Source: Actinomycetes bacterium (GTDB lineage: Bacteria > Actinomycetota > Acidimicrobiia > Acidimicrobiales > RAAP-2). From it: a DNA stretch of 40,724 nt. The notes beneath the pieces were generated by a model. That model searched no databases. It saw only the letters and a program-made list of their open reading frames with translations, and was not told the origin of the DNA. Where the stretch lies: assembly GCA_021806045.1 (NCBI GenBank), contig JAJZDI010000024.1, positions 1 to 40,724 on the forward strand. The letters run 5' to 3'. The position numbers were made by a program, and so were the translations under genes. Every line of letters starts with the position of its first letter. Positions within the stretch are counted from its first letter, which is position 1. This document shows, piece after piece, positions 25,319 to 26,517 of this stretch.

Positions 25319-25452
25319 ACAAGCAACCTACCGAGGTCGGTGGACGGGTTCCAGGGCAATCCGGCCCCAACACGCCTGTGGGTGCCGGCTCGTTCCATGG
25401 GCCGCAACCGGCCGGCGGGGTGGCGCCGGACCGGTCCTGGAGTCGACCCGGA

Positions 25453-25468
25453 ATACCCCGGGGGGTAT
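25453..25468. promoter_or_regulatory. CsoR/CstR-family operator candidate (ATACCCC-GG-GGGGTAT)
   Basis: A 16-bp site with perfect 7-bp arms, ATACCCCGGGGGGTAT, which is the G-tract inverted repeat bound by CsoR-family repressors (CsoR for Cu(I), CstR for persulfide). It lies 97 bases before the thioredoxin start, between a weak -35-like TCGACC (25443-25448) and a TATATT -10-like hexamer (25466-25471) at 17-base spacing, where a bound repressor would block transcription. The promoter hexamers are inference. No CsoR-family gene occurs in this window. Confidence 0.7.
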
Positions 25469-25564
25469 ATTGGTTGTACTCCAGCGACACACCGGGACGA
25501 ACCCGGATCGCGACGAACGGCGGCCGGCCCGGCCGGAGCCCAGAGAGAAGCAGAGGTGTAAGCA

Positions 25565-25936
25565 ATGGCCACGGTGACGCTGACCAAGGACAACTTCGAG
25601 GACGTGGTGACGAACAACGAGGTCGTCCTGATCGACTTCTGGGCATCGTGGTGCGGGCCCTGCCGGATGTTCGGCCCCATCTTCGAGAAGGCGTCCGAGC
25701 GCTACCCCGACTTCGTGTTCGGCAAGGTCGACACCGAGGACCAGCAGGAGCTGGCCGGCTCGTTCGGCATCATGTCGATCCCGACGCTCATGATCATCCG
25801 TGACCAGATCACGTTGTTCGCCCAGCCCGGGGCGCTGCCGGAGGCGGCCCTCGAGGACCTGATCGGCCAGGTGAAGGCGCTCGACATGGACGACGTCCGG
25901 CGCCAGATCGCCGATCGGGAGCAGGCACCGGCCTGA
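25565..25936 (+). CDS. thioredoxin of the DUF302-linked type
   Basis: 123 residues, single thioredoxin domain. The active site is WASWCGPC with C30 and C33, followed by FGPIFEKASERYPDFVFGKVDTEDQ in two adjacent segments and the cis-proline motif MSIPTLMIIRDQ. The C-terminal helix is extended by about 15 charged residues (MDDVRRQIADREQ). It is preceded by a purine-rich site (AGAGGTGTAAGCA) and by the CsoR/CstR-type operator, and is followed 161 bases later by a DUF302 gene. Thioredoxin plus DUF302 under such an operator points to reactive-sulfur or thiophilic-metal stress; the general role in disulfide reduction is established for the family. Confidence 0.92.
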   Translation: MATVTLTKDNFEDVVTNNEVVLIDFWASWCGPCRMFGPIFEKASERYPDFVFGKVDTEDQQELAGSFGIMSIPTLMIIRDQITLFAQPGALPEAALEDLIGQVKALDMDDVRRQIADREQAPA

Positions 25937-26097
25937 CATGCCGCACCGGTGCCGGGCTCGCCGCCCGGTGCCGGTGGCGTGCCGGCGCTGGCAGGGCCGG
26001 CATCGTCGGGATCTCCGCACCGGGCGTCGCAATGTCCCGAACCCCGACGTCCCGAAGCCGGACGTTCCGAATCGCAGACCATGAAGGCAGGAACACG

Positions 26098-26469
26098 ATG
26101 AAAGCAATCGAGAAGGTCGTCCCCGGCACCCGGGTCGAGGTGGAGCCGGCCGTGAGGCAGGTACTCGCCGACCAGGGCTTCGGCGTCCTCACCGAGATCG
26201 ACGTCGAGGCGACCATCCAGGCCAAGCTCGGCGTGGCGGGCCCACCGGTGAAGATCCTGGGCGCGTGCAACCCCGGCTTCGCCAAGCAGGCCCTCGAGCT
26301 CGACCCGTCGGTGGCCCTGCTCCTCCCGTGCAACGTCGTGCTGCGTGACGTCGACGAGGGCACGCTGGTGTCCATCGCCGACCCCCGGGCGCTCATGGAC
26401 GCGCCCGAGTTCGAGGCGTTGGCCGACGAGGCGGCCGGCAGGCTGCAGGCAGCCGTCGACGCCCTCTGA
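26098..26469 (+). CDS. DUF302 domain protein
   Basis: 123 residues, a complete single DUF302 domain of unknown biochemical function. Visible: VEVEPAVRQVLADQGFGVLT and IDVEATIQAKLG, then the signature VKILGACNPGFAKQAL and VALLLPCNVVLRDVDEG. Two cysteines (C57 and C78) sit in the two most conserved motifs and could bind metal or carry persulfide. The ATG at 26098 has AAGGCAGGA as ribosome binding site. DUF302 genes are found next to CsoR/CstR regulators, thioredoxins and rhodaneses in many bacteria, matching the thioredoxin and operator here. Confidence 0.9.
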   Translation: MKAIEKVVPGTRVEVEPAVRQVLADQGFGVLTEIDVEATIQAKLGVAGPPVKILGACNPGFAKQALELDPSVALLLPCNVVLRDVDEGTLVSIADPRALMDAPEFEALADEAAGRLQAAVDAL

Positions 26470-26485: not shown

Positions 26486-26517
26486 GGGGCCGGCCCGCAG
26501 CGACGCGGGCCGGCCCC
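26486..26517 (+). terminator. strong hairpin terminator after the DUF302 gene
   Basis: A perfect 13-bp GC stem, GGGGCCGGCCCGC and GCGGGCCGGCCCC, around the six-base loop AGCGAC, starting 16 bases after the stop codon. It is followed by a short pyrimidine-rich stretch (ACCTGTTCTCCCC). Confidence 0.8.

Follow-up and report, generated by a model that had tools for sequence, protein, structure and literature searches.

Which signal controls the thioredoxin and DUF302 genes that follow a CsoR-family palindrome in the window, the whole stretch of 40,724 nucleotides analysed here? A reading made from the sequence alone had proposed an operator in front of these two genes and had left open whether it answers to copper or to persulfide. 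We find that the site is very probably the operator of a CstR-type, persulfide-sensing regulon that includes the thioredoxin-DUF302 unit; by analogy with published homologues, the unit would be repressed until sulfane sulfur releases the regulator.

The operator is an exact 16-mer, ATACCCCGGGGGGTAT, at positions 25453..25468 of the plus strand. It has C/G arms and eight bases between its TAC and GTA ends (TAC-X8-GTA, hereafter X8), and its assignment is based on the exact match, the spacing class and the conservation of both arms in a congener. A promoter scan returned a single sigma-70-like promoter between 25300 and 26600 (shuffle mean 0.0, sd 0.2) comprising a -35-like hexamer, TCGACC (25443..25448, plus strand), and a -10-like hexamer, TATATT (25466..25471, plus strand), each with the same six bases in the congener promoter. 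The operator occupies the 17-bp spacer between these hexamers and extends over the first half, three bases, of the -10 box. This agrees with the sequence-only reading, which had placed the site in the likely promoter spacer, and the operator is thus predicted to be positioned to block the promoter. The thioredoxin gene starts 96 bp past the operator and the DUF302 gene comes next. To the left lies a divergent phosphoketolase gene and to the right, on the opposite strand, are a cydDC-like ABC transporter pair (a transporter label given by eye) and cydB.

The thioredoxin gene (25565..25936, plus strand) encodes a protein of 123 aa with a WCGPC active site and a tail of the QPGALP...LDM subtype that matches PF00085 (E 3.3e-26) and TIGR01068 (103.5 bits against a cut-off of 96.8). 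The DUF302 gene (26098..26469, plus strand), identified from its profile, alignments and congener counterpart, also encodes 123 aa and matches PF03625 (E 7.6e-21). Its two cysteines, C57 and C78, fall in a conserved CNP...PCN arrangement, and every sequence in two alignments, of 22 and 43 members with the window protein included, has both. The two conserved cysteines noted earlier were thus borne out. The genes are likely co-transcribed. They are separated by a gap of 161 bp (25937..26097, plus strand) that contains a strong, GC-rich hairpin, a possible attenuator whose signal is weak against shuffles (z -1.59); this hairpin could separate the expression of the two genes. A second hairpin with a 13-bp stem and no T run (26486..26517, plus strand; z -2.55) is the probable end of the unit.

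We considered whether the palindrome is a structural or chance feature, such as a terminator-like hairpin, rather than an operator. These 16 bases also appear in a terminator scan, listed as a hairpin followed by a weak T tail. With up to three mismatches allowed, the window contains two operator matches (one place read on both strands), the mean for shuffles being 0.29, and 3 of 100 window shuffles likewise reach two matches, so the loose pattern is not decisive within the window alone. The genome as a whole gives a different picture. The strict pattern ATACCCCNNGGGGTAT occurs without mismatch at three places in the 3.10 Mb genome where about 0.007 are expected from base composition, and with up to two mismatches at five places versus two for the reversed control. 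The pattern ATACCCNNNNGGGTAT finds the same five places with no mismatch and its reversed form finds none. Together with the counterparts of these sites in the congener, the position of the site inside a promoter and its recurrence before orthologous genes, this makes a structural or chance origin scarcely credible. The operator called from the window alone therefore holds, and the genome search for further copies that had been suggested yields five places in all, three of them with the strict pattern.

The genes behind these sites point to sulfur. The three best sites lie before the thioredoxin-DUF302 unit, before a rhodanese-persulfide dioxygenase (PDO) gene, and between divergent SQR-DsrC-DsrE and flavoprotein genes. 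At C17:224231 the site precedes, on the plus strand, a gene for a rhodanese plus metallo-beta-lactamase protein of the persulfide-dioxygenase kind and, on the minus strand, a divergent gene for a cation-efflux transporter. At C31:188210 it lies between a flavoprotein disulfide oxidoreductase gene (plus strand) and a minus-strand run encoding a PIG-L deacetylase, a CMD/AhpD-like protein, SQR, DsrC and DsrE2. The SQR of the regulon is a type III enzyme (549.9 bits against a cut-off of 525). The model concerned, NF049943, is named 'type III sulfide quinone reductase, selenoprotein subtype', and the gene (L009:3460-4701) has no internal stop. The PIG-L deacetylase superfamily includes deacetylases of low-molecular-weight thiols, and the place of this deacetylase as the first gene of the SQR run could link the supply of thiols with the response to sulfur. 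The remaining two sites lie before a gene for a YgaP-like membrane protein (C23:24644) and at C17:191092-191107. The latter directly adjoins the beginning of a small, conserved reading frame rich in cysteine, MCTAVTCPDCKRPTW..., and overlaps its start codon. This frame has no Pfam match and is followed by a TehB-like methyltransferase gene, with an equivalent in the congener at G565:C118:42360; the small gene is perhaps leaderless and directly blocked by the repressor. No copper gene was identified among the genes at the five sites.

The congener contains six ATACCCNNNNGGGTAT sites and none of the reversed pattern. All five sites of the source genome have counterparts there and the sixth lies before the congener's own CstR gene (L258:3060-3329), whose product of 89 aa has a C-G-C fingerprint and which is next to an rlmN-like gene. 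Alignment of four promoter pairs showed that the ATACCC and GGGTAT arms are both kept and that the centre differs. At the rhodanese-PDO site, compared by eye in gene direction, the arms are again the same and the centre is CC in the source genome and GG in the congener. The two genomes have in common the gene order phosphoketolase, thioredoxin, DUF302 and transporter genes, and the 4.5 kb around the thioredoxin-DUF302 unit aligns at 82%. Identity is 95% for thioredoxin and 86% for DUF302.

Copper sensors of the CsoR family carry a C-H-C fingerprint and CstR-type proteins have no His between their two cysteines, a distinction that comes from the CsoR/CstR literature; the copper CsoR of Streptomyces lividans has such a C-H-C copper site. 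One alternative to persulfide control is that the window site is the operator of a copper-sensing CsoR or RicR and that the thioredoxin-DUF302 unit answers Cu(I). The copper CsoR sites of S. lividans resemble the window site, and their consensus is TAC-X9-GTA in the portions of that paper available to us (PMC3902906), one base longer than the X8 form that the window site has. In the corresponding portions of a study of S. coelicolor, ScCsoR binds ATACC-N6-GGTAT, an X8 site, upstream of its own gene and of pdo and rhod, and polysulfide releases it (PMC7533328). A search of the literature on CsoR/CstR operators for a spacing rule matched only the S. lividans paper.

We counted exact TACCC and GGGTA arms in upstream regions, excluding 43 ids of loci that had been fetched through the site itself. 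X8 spacing was present upstream of 17 of 30 CstR genes (a biased rate, many of these regions coming from genomes picked for a perfect site), 13 of 42 thioredoxin genes of the window's subtype, 7 of 17 rhodanese/PDO and 8 of 109 DUF302 genes. It was upstream of none of 37 C-H-C CsoR genes, defined in this count by a best BLAST match to one of the source genome's two CsoRs, and of none of 45 CopZ/CopA genes. X9 spacing was found in 18/37 and 10/45 of these last two groups and in no other; X10 occurred in one CstR region. The thioredoxin, C-H-C CsoR and CopZ/CopA sets were collected largely through protein searches, and site-bearing genomes supplied some of their regions. Elsewhere a regular expression or inspection by eye served to read the C-H-C and CstR fingerprints, with one member, L201, left unassigned. 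The source genome has its own X9 site at the csoR-copZ-copA operon, as does the congener. Allowing one mismatch in the X9 pattern adds only C22:1930, which has a broken TAC end, and the reversed control also gives two places.

Sites of the same kind recur in the class. The perfect site is present in 18 of 148 genomes, at 28 places, and the reversed pattern at none. Outside the source genome 22 of 25 places adjoin a CstR, rhodanese/PDO, SQR-like or thioredoxin gene and three have no such neighbor, the genes of relatives being named by BLAST with the source genome's own proteins and by a Pfam check for selected genes. All 17 other site-bearing genomes have a CstR-type gene without the His. At one locus (L248, G087:C8) a CstR gene is followed by three clustered X8 sites before a gene for an MMPL-like transporter, so labelled by eye. 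The site is present at 23 of 48 relatives of the thioredoxin (at least 50% identity, at most one mismatch), some of them fetched through the site, and absent from 25; the random-window control for this count is inflated, many loci having been fetched in that way. The exact X8 site is absent from 29 of 42 close thioredoxins.

In named genomes X8 lies within 1.5 kb upstream of DUF302, with at most one mismatch, at 13 of 20 actinobacterial loci versus 2 of 44 others, 'actinobacterial' being assigned from record titles and 16 of the 80 named loci being left out for short flanks. Downstream it occurs at 1 of these 64 loci and the reversed pattern at none. Among DUF302 loci of the class the site (at most one mismatch) is upstream of 9 of 29, downstream of one, and reversed at none. 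Thus, 20 of 29 DUF302 genes of the class, and 42 of 44 outside the actinobacteria, have no upstream X8. In named actinobacteria, for example Nocardioides (L158, L173) and Kribbella (L181), DUF302 recurs with CstR, the same thioredoxin subtype, SQR, DsrC or rhodanese/PDO. The flanks of the 80 named DUF302 loci contain a CopA-like frame in 22 cases, an operator-like site in 18, a CsoR-family gene in 14 and a thioredoxin gene in 11. In three inspected proteobacterial loci (L149, L167, L185), DUF302 directly precedes the gene for a large P-type ATPase that has a CPC motif and, at its N terminus, a YHS-like domain; by appearance these ATPases are of the copper type.

The CopA-like frames and the three ATPase loci favor copper control of the unit, as do the C-H-C fingerprints of the CsoR-family proteins in the source assembly, one of which matches a RicR model below its cut-off. 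Against this, copper operators have X9 spacing in S. lividans, at 18/37 C-H-C csoR genes (X8 at none) and at the csoR-copZ-copA operons of both the source genome and the congener, and none of the genes identified at the five sites is for copper; one of these sites has a divergent cation-efflux transporter gene. From tests of spacing, targets, regulator fingerprint and tree we judge copper control of the window site distinctly unlikely. The X8 spacing, the other genomic sites and the type of regulator that adjoins such sites in relatives lead us to persulfide and not copper, so that of the two signals left open by the sequence-only reading the persulfide one is favored and the copper one is not.

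The sequence-only reading had also held that the repressor is not encoded in the window, and had asked whether the genome has any CsoR-family gene at all. The source assembly contains two, at C2:90144 in a csoR-copZ-copA arrangement and as an orphan at C24:40217-40462, and both are on contigs other than that of the window. Their products both have the C-H-C fingerprint. In a tree of 80 rows they belong to the 41 on the copper side, which a fully supported split sets apart from the 39 of CstR type; the tree is built on few columns and carries a long-branch warning. A CstR-type gene (two Cys, no His between) was not found in this assembly, and a search for a diverged or split cstR with a CstR protein, up to E 10, matched only the two known CsoR-family genes.

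The congener suggests where the missing gene may be. With 40 of 548 candidates scored, the 4.4-kb segment that carries cstR and rlmN in the congener showed only 31-37-base matches in the source assembly, and a search with the rlmN product, run without its own positive control, matched nothing there. The RlmN label (L258) is from a radical-SAM match and a reading of the sequence. To our knowledge RlmN is near-universal, and because its gene is missing as well we favor a gap over loss. The assembly is 97.46% complete in 43 contigs. Thus, on the evidence of the congener and the missing segment, the strain's cstR probably lies in an assembly gap and has not been lost.

We also considered whether the orphan C-H-C protein, which is RicR-like, took over the sulfur regulon in the source species. 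The assembly encodes only one other CsoR-family protein, and the orphan gene has no CopZ/CopA-type gene beside it. However, the congener keeps counterparts of all five sites and also has a CstR, and only two CsoR-family genes are seen in its 88%-complete assembly. The missing cstR segment also holds rlmN, as expected of a gap rather than a loss, and the orphan protein groups with the copper CsoRs and has no X8 site in view before its own gene. We consider such a takeover unlikely. The orphan gene (L012) was not seen in the congener assembly, and the ATPase nearest to it is of the general cation type. Its product matches the RicR model at E 6e-44 and 148.5 bits, below the cut-off of 175; the one CstR-type protein tried also had this copper model as its best match, again below the cut-off. 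The idea that the orphan marks a sulfur locus arose from a relative (G036) in which a csoR with 73% identity lies about 1.3 kb from a thioredoxin gene. This was rejected, since the 14-kb stretch concerned contains no operator-like site and the intervening genes look unrelated by eye.

Under control by a CstR-type regulator, the reduced two-cysteine repressor would sit on the operator between -35 and -10 and keep the thioredoxin-DUF302 unit off. When sulfide is oxidized by the SQR of the regulon, or thiols become persulfidated in another way, the cysteines would react with sulfane sulfur and the repressor would leave. This would allow joint expression of the SQR-DsrC-DsrE and flavoprotein genes, the rhodanese-PDO gene and the thioredoxin-DUF302 unit, and the YgaP-like membrane protein and the small cysteine-rich protein are probably in the same regulon. 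SQR would then oxidize sulfide, PDO-rhodanese and a DsrC/DsrE relay would consume persulfide, and thioredoxin would return protein persulfides to thiols. Reduction of protein persulfides is described for S. aureus thioredoxins in the part of that study available to us (PMC6196236).

The contribution of DUF302 is less clear from its relatives. A structure model (pLDDT 97) matches 1j3m and 1q9u, which are uncharacterised DUF302 structures, and a structural search with E up to 0.001 returned these two and three chains of one Brucella entry. That entry is titled a putative fluoride transporter, a title that seems unfit for the fold, and it gave no functional lead. Literature pairing DUF302 with thioredoxin, sulfur or CstR yielded no function or reaction, in keeping with the earlier statement that DUF302 has no assigned reaction. 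DUF302 genes are reported in sox clusters of Sulfitobacter and in an sqr operon of Synechocystis, in passages that state no function. With its two invariant cysteines, DUF302 would most likely act alongside thioredoxin by carrying, binding or reducing sulfane sulfur.

A broader proposal is offered tentatively, as one we can entertain but would not yet bet on as a whole. DUF302 may be a soft-ligand Cys protein that acts as a sulfane-sulfur carrier or depersulfidase with a dedicated thioredoxin and belongs to the core of the CstR regulon in actinobacteria; proteobacterial relatives beside copper-like ATPases may do related thiol chemistry; and the single base that separates TAC-X8-GTA from TAC-X9-GTA may insulate persulfide control from copper control within one regulator family. 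The useful part is DUF302 as a recurrent member of the regulon. DUF302 is widespread, and a conserved persulfide-type operator makes it a testable part of bacterial sulfur defence. With a one-base spacing rule, sequence alone would suffice to assign the CsoR-family sites of these genomes to sulfur or copper, which would help where annotation models do not part the CstR type from the copper type.

Several known systems resemble the regulon described here, and we compare them from the portions of each report available to us. The SUL module of Arthrobacter plasmids clusters a CsoR-family regulator, a sulfur dioxygenase, rhodaneses and a DUF302 protein (PMC6305408). It differs in being a plasmid cluster, and the passage describing it gives no operator, thioredoxin or DUF302 function. 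TTHA1953 of Thermus thermophilus is likewise CsoR-like and represses sulfur genes, and its regulon is scattered, but it recognizes TACNNTACNNNNGTANNGTA, which has no G tract, and controls Sox genes (PMC10318464). The operator of the copper CsoR of S. lividans is, as here, of Type 2, with G tracts and with TAC and GTA at its ends, but its spacing is TAC-X9-GTA and the targets are copZA (PMC3902906). CstR of S. aureus and YrkD of B. licheniformis are CsoR-family repressors of SQR, PDO and sulfurtransferase genes that sense sulfane sulfur through two cysteines (PMC5480029, PMC9918477). These two proteins are from Firmicutes. Direct control by S. aureus CstR is described as likely limited to a single operon, and the main text of neither report mentions DUF302. 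The ScCsoR circuit of S. coelicolor comprises four genes (csoR, pdo, rhod and tauE) without a thioredoxin or DUF302 gene, and its regulator is beside its targets, whereas in the present genome five separate loci carry the sites and the assembly lacks the regulator gene. Like the regulon described here it belongs to an actinobacterium and has a 16-bp ATACC-N6-GGTAT operator with PDO and rhodanese genes as targets, and its two-cysteine repressor is reported to respond to sulfane sulfur (PMC7533328).
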